Assembly (NCBI GenBank): GCA_008477525.1
Contig: SPDT01000013.1
Span: 1,845,501-1,909,500, forward strand
Length of the DNA: 64,000 nt
Direction of reading: 5' to 3'
Source: Hypomyces perniciosus
Lineage: Eukaryota > Ascomycota > Sordariomycetes > Hypocreales > Hypocreaceae
Each line of letters begins with the position of its first letter. Position 1 is the stretch's first letter. The translations under genes were made by a program, and so were the position numbers. The notes under the pieces were generated by a model that worked only from the letters and a program-made list of their open reading frames with translations, was not told where the DNA came from and did no database searches. Shown here in pieces: positions 24,209-61,852 of the stretch.

Positions 24209-25100
24209 AATAATAATAGCTTTATAATTAAATTAATAAAATATTTAAGTTAAATAAAAACAATAAAAGGGGATACTTTATTAATATTAAAATTATTAAA
24301 AAAACCTATAAATTAATACGCTAAATATTCAAATAGAGCTAGAAAAGGCAGTATAACTCTTAATTAATATAAATCACGTTTACACTTAATAAAAAGTGCT
24401 TTTATATAATATAAAGTTATAAAGTTATAAAGATAAAAAAGGTAAAAAGAACAAAAGGGAGGGAAAATAAATAATATACCTATTCCTTCTTTATATTAAA
24501 AGTAATTGCCATATAGTAAAAGTAATTAATTGTCTCATATTTAAAGCTTTAAACTTTTTCTTTATTTATAAAAGGAATTTTATTTTTCCCCCTCTTTAAA
24601 GTAAACCCTCTATAAAGGGCTTTATTTATAACAGGCTCTTTTACTTATAGCAGGCTTTTGCCTGCAGCGCTTAATTTATTAATATTTATAATATTTATAA
24701 TATTTATAATCTTTATTATTTTATAAAAGGCTACTTTTTAGTCTTGCAGCTTATAGGCAGGAATAATAAGGGTTTTGCAAATAAGCGGCGGGTCTAGGCT
24801 TAAGCCACATCCTCCTTTAAGTACAGCTTTTACCTAAAACTACAACTATATTTCAATACCCTTTTTTACAGTTATACCAACACTAAAACATAAAGTTAAT
24901 ACTATATTATTAAGCAGTTAAAGTAGTCAAAATAACTAATTGCCAGTAAATATTCCAATTTATAGCTAGTGATTATAGTGGCTAGTTAGTAAAATGTCCT
25001 ATTAAAAAAGGAATTCCAGAAGCTACGCTTTATACTCGGTTACCACCTACGCAAAGCAGCTTCGCGGCTTTGCTTGATTATTACATTTACTTAAATAGGT
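23966..25100. other. AT-rich remnant and edge of the left transposon block
   Basis: TpA-rich DNA with a short (TTA)n run near 24166-24210 and no gene. Base composition changes to near balanced between about 25020 and 25150, marking the edge of the RIP-affected block. Confidence 0.6.
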
Positions 25101-25149
25101 AATTACAAGGTTATAGTTTTCTTATAAATATATATTCAAAAGGTAGGGT

Positions 25150-28100
25150 GTTTATTCGTGTAAAAGGGTAGCTTGGTAATCTCGTTATACCTAAACCTTT
25201 TCTCCAGCTATATGAAAATATTCAGAATGTCTTTGCCATACACGATCCGCATCCCTGGCTAAAGAGCTTTGAGATAGCCAGTCAGCCTAAGAGCCTTTAA
25301 ACTTTGGACTTGAAAATCTTTCTGTTTTAATGTCCGACATGGCGTTATTGAGCATCTGGGTGGCTCTACAGGTGAGTGCGAATCGCCCGAGACATCTATA
25401 TTCTGCGTGCCGCGAAATAAAGCCAAATTGATCTTGATTTTGGTAACCCATCATGTATTCGGAGAGGAGTGATTGGACCGAGTCTCAACGGAGGGTGTGG
25501 TAAAGCCGTCCCTCACAACACCTCACTGTCCTAGATTCGTTAGATAGAGGCAAATTGATGTTTAACCGAAGCAGTCGCTCATCGTCAAGATCAGGGAAGG
25601 GTAGGATCTGCTGGCGAGGTTTCTCGGTAAACCAGTACTGAAACAGCCGTGTCTGTAAGCAAATGACTCTGGACACGTACAGAAGTATCATCTTCCATGA
25701 ATTCGACCCGATATGGGTTGTAGCCGTGGGTGATTGGAGTTGTAGCGTGGAAGGGCTGGCAGTTTAAAGGCAAGTCAAGATGTACTAGTATTCCGAAGTC
25801 GGAAGCACGGAGTAAACAGACTTAGATCACGATCCGAATGGATTGTCAAGCCTACCCTTGCTGCACGGTTACTCGTAAAGCCATTGCCATATCAGAATTA
25901 TCAAATGGAGCTTTATTCATATCACTAATACGAAGTAAATGACGGTATAATAGCCACTACTTAACTTGTGGTATAATACGTCCCGGATCGCATGACACGG
26001 CTTGATCCCCGTCTTATTACCCTAGTGCTAAAAAGGGAACTTGTGCGGCCCTATCGGCCAACACCGATAGATCCGAAGTACCGTACTCCGTACTTCGTAT
26101 TCCATTATCACTAGTGCGGAATGACAGTGTTGCCCCTGCTACCGTATCCACTCCGAGTTTGATACAATATCTTCAAGCAACCAATTGATATTAATACAGC
26201 TCCACACATCCATGTCAGCGTTTTAGTACATAGTAGTACGCCTAGATCAGAGTACAGTGTAAAGTCATGTTGACTAACAGTGTACCTACCTAATCCTAGT
26301 AATAGTAGGAGTATTTATTTTTACTGAGGTTGAAAGGAAACTAAATAGCTTGTAGGGATTCGGGAAAGAGGGCGGGGTAGGACCGGGATTTCATTGCTCT
26401 ATTGTGGCTTTAATGCAATATATGGCCTTGAGGTGGATGGTCTTGAGGTATGTGTTGTATTGAAGTTGAGATGTTGAATAAAGGGGTTGAAGTTGAAGGA
26501 AGCTCGATCACATCACATACACAGGATCATGTGCGCCTTGATGTGCATAAATACGAGTATAGTGGTTCCCTTATTGTACTCGTATATTAATTCCGCGAAC
26601 GGGCGCAAATGGCGCTAAAAAGTGCCGTGCCATTAATTACAGACTTAAAATAAGGTAGGATATCCGGATCGGGACATAATAAACATGAGCTTTGTGCCAT
26701 TGGTTTGTGTGAATTGGGTACTCCAATGACAGGGACCTATAGGCTTTCTTTTGTCTCCAAGGAGGATCTATCAGTGACACTAGCGTGAATGTAGATGCCA
26801 TACATATTAGTATTGATAAGACGCTTGGTCAAGTACCTGATTGCTTGGTGGATCATGGCCTTGTTTCACTTGTTCAGTCAACATATTAGGATATATGATT
26901 ATGGGTACTATATCAGGGGACGCAGACTTTTCGTAATTAGTCCTTGTTAAGATTATATGCTTCTAGGCTCCCAAATTGTGATTAGAGTGCTAGAGAAGAA
27001 ACTAAGTAATTGAGACCCCAGGCCGTGCAGCGCAATGAGCTATTTACTCATATATAGCAGCAAGGAGATGAAATTCTATCGGCTTCGCCTATATGAAAAA
27101 TGTAACACTGAGGTAAGAGGTGTGAAAAATGGCGTGCCAACCTTCACAACCTCGTACTCACAGGTTTACAAGTCTCCGGATCCTCCATGGAGTAATAATA
27201 CTCGGCGAGATGATCGCTATAGCCGCCTTGGGTCCACTTCAGCCCTTCTAGCTACAAGTGTTGCCTCCGAGGCCACAATCCAGTGGATCCAATGCCGGAT
27301 GACCTTCTCCTCGTATACAGTAACTCATGGATTCAGTGTAATAGTACCTAGTCATTATGGAACCTGCTTAGAAACTCATTTTTCCTTTTCAGTCCCGTTG
27401 ATTTTCAGAGTCCTCTTTGGACATTGAAGGTCCGTCCTTAGCCCATACGAGTATTTATCATATTACCAAAAAAAAAAAAAGAATAAGCAGTGTGTGGTGA
27501 TCTGTCAGCTTACAAGTTGAGCAAGCTGATACATGATGTGAATCGATGCAAACGGTGAGACCCCTGATACCATAATTTGTGATACTACGAGTACTATACT
27601 ATCCGAAGTACGGCCAGTGAGGGGAAGTTGTATAACTTTGTACTCCGTACTCGTGGAGCGAAAACATCCTAGTCATTGACATTCTAAATGCTCCAAGCGT
27701 CTATGGAGTTATACTACTTGGGCGCCTCCATGCCTACCAGAGGCCTATTATTAGGTCTTATGATCTCCTAGGAATACGTGTCTACCTTTTTTCTCTTCTT
27801 ACCGCGGGTTCAGTCTTTGTTATTATGTAGTATATTAAATCGAGGCCTCATGATCCCTATACTAAGTGACACATCAGAGCGCGAGGAGGATTACTAGCCC
27901 GGGCGCTCCTATCTGCGCGTTCGCCCGGGTTCAATGTTATCCTTCACACTAAAACTTTCCTGTCTGATCGCGCCACAGCCAAAAACTCTGCGGCATTGAA
28001 TACGCCATCCTTGAAGCTTATTGGCGGAAATGGCCATATATCTCACCGAGCCCAAGTTATTTAAGGTGGTAAGCAACACACGTATTCGGTTAGTACAACA

Positions 28101-28600
28101 TTATCACGCTGATCAGGGTCTTCCTTGCCTCTCGGGGCTTGTATCTGAAAGATACGTTATTTCCGTAATATACAGTTGACACTTCGTTGAGCTTGCAATA
28201 TAATCACCAGCCATTAAATTGTCACGCAGGTACAGAGCAGTACTTGCAAGTGCCTATCTACATACTTCCTATCGCCACACACTGGTAATACGCGACAAGC
28301 ACCGGGACCACAGAGGCTACTCCATACTCCAGTAATGGTAATAGTAGTGGTGGCACGACAATAGGGGAACTAACAATACCGAGTCACCATCTCCTAACCA
28401 TGTATGGAAAGCGTCAAGACATGCCGAAGCCTTGGCATCTAGGTATGGGCGGGTACATTATTTGATTTGGGCTTGACTCGTTGTATCCGATTGGATAGTA
28501 TACCCATAGAATAGGAAATCGCACTGACAGTACATCACTAGGAAGTGTGGGACGTTTCGTAATTATTATCTATAATTCCGGGCGATCGATACGTTCTCCA
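25150..28600. other. Island of normal composition with no convincing gene
   Basis: Balanced base use, unlike both flanks. Frames are short: a 130-codon frame at 27035-27427 and two overlapping minus frames at 25485-25773. None shows a recognisable domain, signal peptide or splice pattern. The two minus frames could be one frameshifted relic, because the C-terminal part (LDDERLLRLNINLPLSNES) looks protein-like. I see TACTCCGTA-type motifs near 26085 and 27640 and an A-run at 27468. Confidence 0.5.
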
Positions 28601-28619
28601 TAATGTATAGAGCAATGAG

Positions 28620-28626
28620 TATATAT
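28620..28626 (+). promoter_or_regulatory. Possible TATA box of the repeat-peptide gene
   Basis: TATATAT about 105 bp upstream of the ATG at 28732, followed by a CT-rich leader (CATCTCCCTCCTTCACA), the usual layout of a mould core promoter. The match is weak because such motifs are common. Confidence 0.4.
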
Positions 28627-28731
28627 CGTGGTCATCTCCCTCCTTCACATATCCAGTATCATCTCTCTGCATAGATTCACCAGCGTCAAACAAACTCGTT
28701 GCGTCAACTCTACTCGCAATTCCTCAACACT

Positions 28732-29025
28732 ATGCGTAGCATCGCTCTTATCGCCCTCATGGCTGCGGCCCAGGTTGTGGCCTTGCCGACTATCCTTACT
28801 GTGCGTACCATCACTTCATATAATGCATCGATGATCTGGCCTCATACTAATGTGAAGATAAAGCGTGAGGCAGAGGCTGAAGCTGGTCCGCCTGGTCGTG
28901 ACTGGAAGCGTGAGGCAGAAGCTGGTCCTCCTGGTCGCGACTGGAAGCGTGAGGCTGAAGCTGGTCCTCCTGGTCGCGACTGGAAGCGTGAGGCTGAAGC
29001 TGGTCCGCCTGGTCGTGACTGGTAA
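28732..29025 (+). CDS. Secreted Kex2-processed repeat peptide precursor (orphan, pheromone-like layout)
   Basis: 97 residues, single exon. Residues 1-18 form a signal peptide (MRSIALIALMAAAQVVALP). Residues 20-43 are a short propeptide with an N-glycosylation site (NAS, 31-33). From residue 44 there are four copies of KR-EAEA-GPPGRDW (the first has an extra EA), ending exactly at the last Trp before the stop. KR is the Kex2 cut site, and EA pairs are what Ste13-type dipeptidyl aminopeptidase removes in yeast alpha-factor, so the predicted product is GPPGRDW or EAEAGPPGRDW, released four times. It lacks the WC...CW core usual in Sordariomycete alpha-pheromones and the Tyr of ustiloxin-type RiPP cores. 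No RiPP tailoring gene is visible nearby. An in-frame TTG lies upstream at 28699, but the ATG places the signal peptide at the N-terminus. Function unknown. Confidence 0.82.
   Translation: MRSIALIALMAAAQVVALPTILTVRTITSYNASMIWPHTNVKIKREAEAEAGPPGRDWKREAEAGPPGRDWKREAEAGPPGRDWKREAEAGPPGRDW
28861..29022 (+). repeat. Four 39-bp coding repeats
   Basis: The unit encodes KREAEAGPPGRDW. Units differ only at third positions (CCG/CCT, CGT/CGC, GCA/GCT). Because 39 is divisible by 3, all other frames also look repetitive; those are shadows. Confidence 0.9.
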
Positions 29026-29877
29026 AGCGGTCTCTGGAGGAGATAACACTCTAGGCCCTGGTGGATAAGGTTTTATAAGGGAGAAAGATTCTAGTAGTGC
29101 TAAAGTAGATTCTTAAAATCAGAGTCCATGATCTAGTTTGTTTGCTTAAGTGATCGGCTACAGGTATAGATACCTTCTACTTATAATCTCGGCTAATCTC
29201 ATTTACCTTAATTGAATCGCTTTACAGTAATAAAGGGATATGTATATTCTTTTTCCTTGCCTATTCAATCCTATAAATTTAAGAGGCTTATTATTAACGT
29301 TTTAATTAATATTTCGTCGGGGGTAACTGACACACCTAGCGCACCTGCATTTCTTTATTAGCTTACCCGAGGAAAGTTGGCTGCTTATTAAAGCAGCTAC
29401 TGCATTAAGAAGGCAATAAAGTATAAACATATACAGATAGACCTACCCGTTGGTGGGTCCTCTGGAAACCAACTGTTAGACTTCGCCCAATAGTTGGCCA
29501 CGAAAGTCCTAATATACCACAAAAGTCCGATATACTTTTTTCCTACAGAGCTACAGCTAAAGTTCATATACATTTCTTTACGCAATAATTATTTCTATTT
29601 TATTACAGTATATTAAAATTTATTAAAAATCCTTAATTTATTTCTAGCTATTTATTTATTTAATTCTCAGCTTACCCGCTACTTAGCTATCTCTTTTATT
29701 ATCTTTTTATAGCGCTCCCTATTTAATAAAGGAAAAGGCAGCAGCATTAGCGATAAAGGCATCTCGATATAGTCGTTAAATTAACTAGCTAGTGGGAATA
29801 ATAGGATATTAATAATATCTTTATTCAGTAGTTATATAGGCTTTTATATCGGCTCTGATATCAGCTCTTATATTAGC

Positions 29878-30102
<225 letters not shown>

Positions 30103-32796: not shown

Positions 32797-32896
32797 CGGC
32801 TAAGTGTATTAGACTTTGATAGTGTATTAGGACTTTTATGGCTAACTGTTAGGCAAAGTCTAACAGTTGGTTTCCAGAGGACCCACTAACGGGTAG

Positions 32897-40083: not shown

Positions 40084-40985
40084 ATTAAAGTTATACTTTT
40101 AACTTTAAAATTAATTAAAAATAACATTAAAAAACTATTGAAATTTTAGCACTTGAAGCTATAAAGTTAAATTATAAGTATTATTATAAACTTTTAGAAT
40201 AATATAAATATAACGGTAATTATAGAAATAATTAATAAATTTTACTTTTGAATTAAAGTCCCTTTTATACTCTTTATTTTTATTTTAATATTTGTAAATT
40301 CAATATAGGCTAGGGAATTAAATATAAGCTAAAAAACTAAACCAAAGTATATTTTTATTATAAAGGTATAAGCCTTTTAGGCTTAAAGGTTTTGCTATAA
40401 TTAAAGATTAATAAATTTCTTATATAGTATAAGGCTTTTTATAATATTATAATTAAGCTATTAATAACTTTATTAATGTTTTAAGGCAAAGTTAAAGGCT
40501 AAAGGTAATAGTATAGTTATTATAGGAAAGCATAAACTATTATAGTATATAGAATAGCAGGTTAAAGTAATATTTTATTATATCTTAAATCAGGCAAAAA
40601 GCTATAAAAGTATAGTTTAAAGGTATAGGATTAAGTTATTATATAAAGATACATATAATACTAATAAGTTATTAGAGGGCAAGTTTAGTGCTATAATAAA
40701 CTAACTTATTTACTAGATGCAAATAATAAAATAAGCAAACAAAAACAAACAAATAAATTAATTAAGTAATATTAAATTATTTAAATTACAATAAACTATA
40801 ACGTAATCCTAGTATATTAATCGAAATATTTAATATAAATAACTAGGAAAATAAATATAATTTAAAGTCATTTATAATTATTTCATTTATATATATATAA
40901 CTGGTTTATTATTTATTTAATATAGTTATTTAAATAGTTATTAATAAATTGCATTTATTAGAACCGCCTATTGTATAGAATTACA
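40084..40985. other. Right edge of the AT-rich block
   Basis: AT-rich DNA with no gene. Composition becomes balanced at about 40970-41040, again a sharp border. Confidence 0.6.
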
Positions 40986-57546: not shown

Positions 57547-58414
57547 ATGGCCCAGTCGCGTGAGGACCAGAACGTTACGAATGAGACACTTGGGGAGCCT
57601 TTGTCCACTAGGAACAAGGTACTCGCCTCCGGAGCGTCCATAATACAAGTACGTCGTGACCCAGTCGAACTGTATTAGATGCTCGACAGTCCTCACGCAA
57701 TGAGCAGGACTTTGGTCCCATTAAGAGTGTATGCGCTCATCTCAATGCCTTCCACACGTACGCGGACGATCCGAGTCGAAGCGTCGAGACGAACCACTAC
57801 TGCGCTCCTTTGAGCAAGTCCACTACCCTGGGCAATGTAAATCGGGGGCTAGGTTGACCAAAACATATCAGATGATGACGTCCGCCAATGTCTCCTCTAC
57901 GACTCCCATAAACCCAACGCCCGCCTCATCGGCATCGAGTACATGATTACCCCCCGCCTTTACGAGACTCTCCCCGCCGAAGAGCGTCGCCTCTGGCACT
58001 CACACGTCTACGAAGTGAAATCCGGAATGCTCATCATGCCCAGCGGCGGGATCGTCTCCCAAGCGGCATGGGAACTTGCTGAGAAACTCGAAATGGAGCA
58101 AATCGTGCATCTGTACGGCAAGGCGTTTCACCTATGGCAGACGGATAGGGGGGATAAGTTACCCCTGGGCGAGCCCAGCTTGATGACGAGCTACACTGCT
58201 GAGGGGCAGCTTAGTTTTGAAGGTGCTGTGAAGGCGAGGGATGAGAAGTTTGGGACGGATTGGAGGAGGAAGAGGGAGATGAGGGTGGATATTGAGGAGC
58301 TGAGGATTCATCCAGGTAAGTGCCGATATGTTATTACTACTATTGATACGTGAGGATGATGCTAACATGGCCCTTTCACTGCACTTAGATGCGGACCAAA
58401 CGTGGAAACTTTGA
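57547..58414 (+). CDS. Oil-body-associated protein-like (DUF1264 family)
   Basis: Four exons by eye: 57547-57648, 57708-57813, 57872-58315, 58389-58414; 225 residues, the usual family length. The second intron begins GCAAGT (a GC-AG intron), and only with it does the text read [17 protein letters not shown] without a stop. Family blocks in order: TKVL-type N-terminus (residues 24-34), [18 protein letters not shown] (41-58), [18 protein letters not shown] (60-81), [15 protein letters not shown] (108-123), [19 protein letters not shown] (150-170), and the end [11 protein letters not shown] on a 26-nt last exon. Plant members associate with oil bodies; fungal members are uncharacterised. The His-rich WHSH and HYC segments suggest metal binding, but that is inference. 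Intact. Confidence 0.85.
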
Positions 58415-61556: not shown

Positions 61557-61852
61557 CTGTCGACCTCAGTTTTTTTTTTATTTTTTTATTACTATTTACG
61601 ACCACTCTGTATCTAGGTACAACAGCCTCGTCTGGGCAACAGGTCGGTAGGAGCCAGGGGGCTAGACCCTGTTCGCTACGTTTCGCTGGACAAAGGAAAG
61701 TTTTGGTGTGTTCTCAATCTATGTCTTGTAGAGGGGGGCCGTATGGGTTTACCTCCTCCACCAGCTTCTGGAAAGCCTCGCTTCCTTTGGGTCCTAGTAG
61801 GTACGTGACTGGTCTCTCGCCTCTCGGTGTTTCGGGGACTGTCGACCTCAGT
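61557..61852 (-). mobile_element. Short poly(A) retroposon with 14-bp target duplication
   Basis: The direct repeat CTGTCGACCTCAGT occurs at 61557-61570 and 61839-61852. Between them lie 268 bp that begin, on the plus strand, with a T-rich run (poly(A) tail when read on minus). This is the signature of LINE-mediated insertion of a SINE or a 5'-truncated LINE on the minus strand. A weak pol III B-box-like string (GGGTCTAGCCC) is present, but no clear tRNA body. No RIP-type AT shift, so it looks recent. Confidence 0.7.

Follow-up and report, generated by a model that had tools for sequence, protein, structure and literature searches.

We find that KEP1, a reading frame in Hypomyces perniciosus, a parasite of mushrooms, very probably encodes a genuine peptide precursor belonging to a described class, the KEX2-processed repeat proteins (KEPs). 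Judged from its sequence, it is likely to be one of at least three local genes for KEX2-processed repeat precursors, with the linear, unmodified heptapeptide GPPGRDW as its product. The gene lies in the window, by which we mean the whole stretch of 64,000 nucleotides analysed, and is 139 kb from the end of the contig, C14 (Table 1).

Table 1. Features of KEP1 and its surroundings, its paralogues and the alpha-pheromone precursor gene. Positions without a prefix are those of the window.
Feature	Position	Strand	Description
KEP1	28732-29025 (C14:1874232-1874525)	+	ATG to TAA, 97 aa
Exon 1, predicted signal peptide MRSIALIALMAAAQVVALPTILT	28732-28800	+	23 codons; translation, paralogue alignment
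Probable intron, GTGCGT...ATACTAATGTGAAG	28801-28857	+	57 nt, in frame, stop-free; position and phase match paralogue introns
Exon 2	28858-29025	+	IKR, four units (EA pairs and GPPGRDW, KR between), TAA
First Kex2 site, KR	28861-28866	+	translation; KR-pair DNA pattern match at C14:1874361
Ste13-type spacer of unit 1, EAEAEA	28867-28884	+	translation
Core 1, GPPGRDW	28885-28905	+	translation
Core 2, GPPGRDW	28924-28944	+	translation
Core 3, GPPGRDW	28963-28983	+	translation
Core 4, GPPGRDW	29002-29022	+	translation; then stop at 29023-29025
Island without RIP signal	25001-29100		TA/AT 1.01, substrate index 1.06; AT-rich blocks affected by RIP on either side
KEP2	C14:1826280-1826534 (L018:1327-1581)	same as KEP1	QNAAPW, DSPAW, QNAAPW; needs splicing
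KEP3	C14:1835257-1835452 (L063:1471-1666)	same as KEP1	SNSDW, PTDW segment; short
PPG1 alpha-pheromone precursor	C16 (L007:1240-2199)	-	three WCFRVGMPCW cores and two variant segments

In translation, the frame has a hydrophobic N terminus and four identical GPPGRDW cores, with KR preceding every unit and then EA pairs, which form EAEAEA in unit 1 and EAEA in the remaining three. The TAA stop directly abuts the last Trp of core 4. An independent run of Tandem Repeats Finder on the array gives a period of 39, 3.8 copies, and a 94% match. The preliminary description of a signal peptide and four KR-EA-GPPGRDW repeats ending on the last Trp is thus confirmed by translation and by repeat finding. 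By eye, the N terminus starts with MR, continues into a hydrophobic stretch, has small residues before ALP, and resembles those of the paralogues. The four EAGPPGRDW stretches vary in two columns, both of them synonymous third positions, and the GCA/GCT difference among the spacers is also a synonymous third position. Among single changes of the unit, 28/117 are synonymous, and three out of three would be synonymous by chance in ~1.4% of cases; this evidence is modest, as common descent of the copies could account for shared changes.

Identical cores between dibasic sites are a feature of the KEP class, and KEP1 has four, each GPPGRDW, with KR sites. It also has features of the STE13-signature subclass: EA pairs occur in 4/4 units, and a DPP-IV-type enzyme is encoded in the genome.

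The first exon of KEP1, KEP2, and KEP3 has 23 or 24 codons and is followed by a phase-0 intron-like stretch, which is 66 nt long in KEP2 (where an acceptor six bases earlier is also possible) and 67 nt long in KEP3. In all three genes, a GT donor is present in this stretch along with a branch-like site, [A/G]CTAAT. The KEP1 stretch carries signals for a donor, a branch point, and an acceptor where both paralogues have an intron, and a donor at position 1 together with a branch site and an acceptor arises in 16 of 100,000 shuffles of the segment. The stretches of KEP2 and KEP3 contain stop codons and must be spliced out if the predicted signal peptides are to be connected to the cores. The KEP1 stretch contains no stop codon and its retention also leaves the frame open, which is why it had previously been read as a short propeptide. 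Because its splice signals match the site of the stop-bearing paralogue introns, we consider that the KEP1 residues VRTITSYNASMIWPHTNVK are probably intron rather than propeptide, and we infer that KEP1 is spliced.

KEP1 had also been described as an orphan, which is wrong within the genome: KEP3 and KEP2 lie 39 and 48 kb upstream, respectively. Each of the three KEP2 cores (the second of which follows EPEP) has KR sites on both sides. KEP3 has a single KR-bounded core, SNSDW, after EA; its PTDW segment comes after exon 1 and is not preceded by KR. KEP2 and KEP3 are evidently duplicates of each other, with 65% DNA identity over 627 nt (E 2e-42). The alignment of KEP1 exon 1 to each paralogue has a score that 0/20,000 shuffles reach, and signal-peptide scores are 43 to 81 within the family versus 3 to 27 for eight other signal peptides. 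A tblastn search of the joined KEP1 protein against five stretches gives E values of 7e-5 and 0.002. The base identity of KEP1 exon 1 with KEP3 and KEP2 is just 65 to 68%, and the flanks of KEP1 have no blastn match to those of KEP2 or KEP3 at E 1e-3. The predicted relationship of KEP1 to the other two genes is therefore through exon 1 and intron position, not through flanking DNA.

KEP2 and KEP3 are identical at 61/69 bases of exon 1 versus 120/164 in the 3' flank (P = 0.010), and at 35/60 aligned bases of exon 2 (with 57 gapped positions) versus the same flank (P = 0.049). These small numbers are suggestive only of a family that keeps its signal exon and replaces its Trp-ended cores. KEP3 may be decaying or shrinking, because it has one KR-bounded core and there is some RIP signal at its locus.

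Matches to two of the expected processing enzymes are present. A single DPP-IV-type match, on C22, lies in a 949-residue frame that has a strongly hydrophobic stretch near its N terminus and a GWSYGG motif, features that a membrane enzyme of the STE13 kind should have. On C4, a partial P-domain match (58/86 positions, E 6e-16) would mark a KEX2-type enzyme; the one stop inside it is perhaps an intron. Together with the anatomy of KEP1, these two matches back the earlier assignment to Kex2/Ste13-type precursors.

We infer cleavage, secretion, and role of KEP1 from these features, as follows. The precursor would enter the secretory pathway via its predicted signal peptide, and Kex2 would cut after KR. 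Kex1 would trim KR off cores 1 to 3, core 4 already ending at the stop, and a STE13-type dipeptidyl aminopeptidase would take off the EA pairs. Such enzymes are not known to cleave Gly-Pro before Pro, so trimming would halt at GPP and leave the linear, unmodified heptapeptide GPPGRDW. Across the family, the signal peptide would be kept while the Trp-ended core changed.

We searched the whole genome (23 contigs; 44,002,379 bases) for further arrays. The DNA pattern for KR-E[A/P]-E[A/P] has 15 matches versus 10 in a reversed control. Four belong to the KEP1 array and one to a paralogue. None of the remaining 10 shows repeated cores when read on the correct strand, although one has a single AWKREAEAEAG, without further repeats, in an 89-residue frame (L023; C16:1471065, minus strand). 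The W-KR pair pattern has 42 matches versus 34 in the reversed control; among the 30 that were read, five are in KEP1 to KEP3, and the other 25 were judged not KEP-like. The signal-exon pattern has 15 matches versus nine in the control; the 10 that were read comprise KEP1 to KEP3 and seven further plus-strand matches that are not KEP-like, and the remaining five are on the minus strand. Exon-wise protein searches with KEP2 return nothing new besides KEP3. Searches of this kind would not detect a paralogue whose signal exon has diverged or whose spacers differ.

At C3:21776, C9:1140467, C12:6270, and C16:27214 (L030, L046, and L053 among the loci), near-identical DNA contains a short frame carrying W-KR pairs, with three copies near contig starts. 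The pairs appear as SRMQVTLWRRQITLWKRTQANPWKRHRNI in L046 and L053. We judged this DNA not to be a KEP; in L030 and L046, it is antisense to a frame of ~210 residues.

In the preliminary description, KEP1 lies between transposon blocks on an island of normal GC. Such an island is there, with a GC content of 0.42 to 0.48 in 1-kb windows across ~25.0 to 29.1 kb. Both of its flanks, putatively transposon blocks, are rich in AT and have strong RIP indices. RIP signal is strong in L075, present around KEP3, and weak in L076; it is absent around KEP2 and over the KEP1 island. Between KEP3 and the window, an open frame of 783 residues encodes a hAT dimerisation domain (L076:2267-4615, plus strand). 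On the 3' side of KEP1, window positions 29443-29537 and 32802-32896 form an inverted repeat of 95 nt with 85% identity, perhaps a transposon end, and positions 29878-30102 hold a TTA repeat of 75 copies (99% match). Two segments match the upstream flank of KEP3 and are perhaps dispersed repeats: 61571-61799 on the minus strand (67% over 240 nt, E 2e-10) and 40699-40750 on the plus strand (83% over 52 nt, E 3e-8). The GC-normal right part of the window encodes a DUF1264 protein (57853-58350, plus strand; Pfam E 8e-60).

KEP1 shares its precursor architecture and presumed Kex2/Kex1/Ste13 processing with MF alpha and PPG1. However, its core has no Cys pair, and a canonical ppg1 is separate in the genome. 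Finding such a gene had been set beforehand as the test that would exclude a pheromone, and the three WCFRVGMPCW cores of PPG1 support the earlier view that KEP1 is not one. This core sequence has no mention in a full-text literature search. The variant W...W segments of PPG1 are WCLKH...SSRW and WCFHH...MPNW. We find one STE2 receptor gene (two exon matches), with its nearest named homologue in Cladobotryum mycophilum (60% identity) and a position in or beside Hypocreaceae in a tree with moderately supported forks; taxonomy places H. perniciosus in Hypocreaceae. With a separate ppg1 and one STE2, a mating pheromone role is unlikely, and we rejected it. A further pheromone, for mating type or sexual development and derived from ppg1, would have the same processing logic, and in PPG1, too, each core has Trp as its last residue, followed by a basic one. 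Yet KEP-family signal peptides, the part that was compared, score only 11 to 20 against that of PPG1 versus 43 to 81 among themselves, and GPPGRDW has no Cys at all, unlike the WC...CW core. The first PPG1 core comes right after the signal region and the two later ones directly after KR, with no EA pairs. These differences and the single STE2 make such a derivation very improbable. Strain HP10 has three MAT1-2-1 copies and no MAT1-1, from which heterothallism was deduced (PMC6627653; this and the other papers are cited from the portions available). A modified cyclic product of the dikaritin kind can be set aside with even greater assurance. Precursors of ustiloxin and phomopsin resemble KEP1 in having a signal peptide and Kex2-cut repeats, an architecture that KEPs have in common with ustiloxin-type precursors (PMC7329392), and there are 17 UstYa (DUF3328) matches in the genome. 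These are on C4, C7, C8, and C23, however, with 0/17 on C14, and Tyr is absent from all cores of KEP1, KEP2, and KEP3. KEP1 also differs in its EA pairs, and, in the available text of PMC6339444, the Ascomycota precursors of toxic cyclic tetrapeptides are said to lack STE13 signatures. The UstYa map and the lack of Tyr make a dikaritin unlikely, in agreement with the preliminary description, and we rejected this identity. Finally, the position of KEP1 among RIP-affected blocks and its lack of a known orthologue could suit a repeat arisen by chance, or a dead gene, in DNA rich in AT and transposons. We rejected a chance array and regard either as highly improbable: in combination, a predicted signal peptide, phase-matched intron signals, a stop exactly after the last core, differences between units that are all synonymous, and two paralogues would not be expected by chance.

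No orthologue of KEP1 was found among 5.8 billion proteins with either KEP1 alone or a three-gene profile, and Pfam has no family for it at E 0.1. The search with KEP1 returned five matches at E 10 or better and the profile seven, with one in common. By eye, nine of the 11 distinct matches are KEP-like and two (P0005 and P0006) are not. Only P0002 falls below 1e-3, at 6.9e-6 with KEP1 alone and 2.7e-2 with the profile. Four of the nine KEP-like matches are assigned to a species, in Termitomyces, Sanghuangporus, Phellopilus, and Lentinula (E 8e-3 to 0.24). All are Agaricomycetes, as confirmed by taxonomy for Sanghuangporus and Phellopilus and as we take Termitomyces and Lentinula to be. Their cores include GPPGW, SGKDW, PSKDW, and APDW. 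There is no named ascomycete KEP among the matches, though the database includes Hypocreales proteins in large number; small genes often go unannotated. The search begins with a word-based step that gives preference to words in common, DWKRE among them, and the shared -DW ends are partly built in for that reason. The Termitomyces hypothetical protein (P0003) has the core EAGPPGW between dibasic sites, the closest named match to EAGPPGRDW; it lacks RD, has an E value of only 8e-3, and its signal peptide scores 8 to 10 against the family.

Published mushroom KEPs provide further parallels. Coprinopsis KEP 490115 and Pleurotus KEP 1091723 resemble KEP1 in their dibasic Kex2 sites, XA/XP pairs, and short, linear, Trp-ended cores (QYKAPSW and SGVAADW, respectively); they are from another phylum and have different cores, and KEP1 has four identical repeats (PMC9769878). 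GPPAPSW, from Coprinopsis KEP 447393, is like GPPGRDW a heptapeptide that starts with GPP and ends in Trp, but comes from a non-repetitive C terminus (PMC9769878). It was detected in Coprinopsis cinerea culture supernatant, in large-volume extractions only (PMC9769878), and thus a GPP-starting, Trp-ended heptapeptide can occur as a secreted product. Peptides ending in -AADW were detected in Lentinula and Pleurotus, and in Pleurotus the STE13-signature KEPs that yield them are processed (PMC9769878). STE13-signature KEPs and an XSDW motif are described in Basidiomycota (PMC6339444), and many KEPs, 2560/7878, are stand-alone (PMC7329392). The suggestion of an undescribed peptide family therefore needs dividing: the precursor class was already described, with its nearest members in Agaricomycetes (PMC6339444, PMC9769878), while the three-gene family and its cores are unfound in the protein database, and GPPGRDW has no mention in a full-text literature search. 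Titles and abstracts on KEPs and mycoparasites contain no description of the family.

The KEP1 product looks more like a mushroom peptide than like the mating pheromone of its own species. H. perniciosus parasitises Agaricus, and strain HP10 was counted with 630 secretory proteins and 186 putative effectors (PMC6627653). The peptides might then imitate Trp-ended KEP peptides of Agaricomycetes at a host receptor, or the genes might have come by horizontal transfer, as could fit the uniformly Agaricomycete species-assigned matches, with their cores, and the published GPPAPSW, -AADW (PMC9769878), and XSDW (PMC6339444). We regard this as rather unlikely: the named matches are weak, part of the -DW likeness stems from the search, and the four mushroom KEPs with species names have signal peptides that score 3 to 27, against 43 to 81 within the family. 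The role of GPPGRDW is most likely, on the sequence features above, that of a secreted signal outside mating, acting between parasite hyphae or towards the mushroom host.

KEPs with pheromone-type processing are widespread, and in the available text of PMC9769878 no specific function is reported for any KEP-derived peptide examined. The interest of KEP1 is in its three-gene family, its occurrence in a mushroom parasite, and cores that resemble mushroom ones. Keeping a signal exon while replacing cores is what one would expect of peptides subject to changing selection. In wet bubble, fruiting bodies become deformed. It is conceivable, if doubtful, that the parasite evolved or acquired a fast-diversifying cluster of Trp-ended peptides that imitate mushroom alpha-pheromone-like peptides and interfere with host development. 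A three-gene family of mushroom-like peptides, in a fungus that parasitises Agaricomycetes, provides a testable handle on KEP function.
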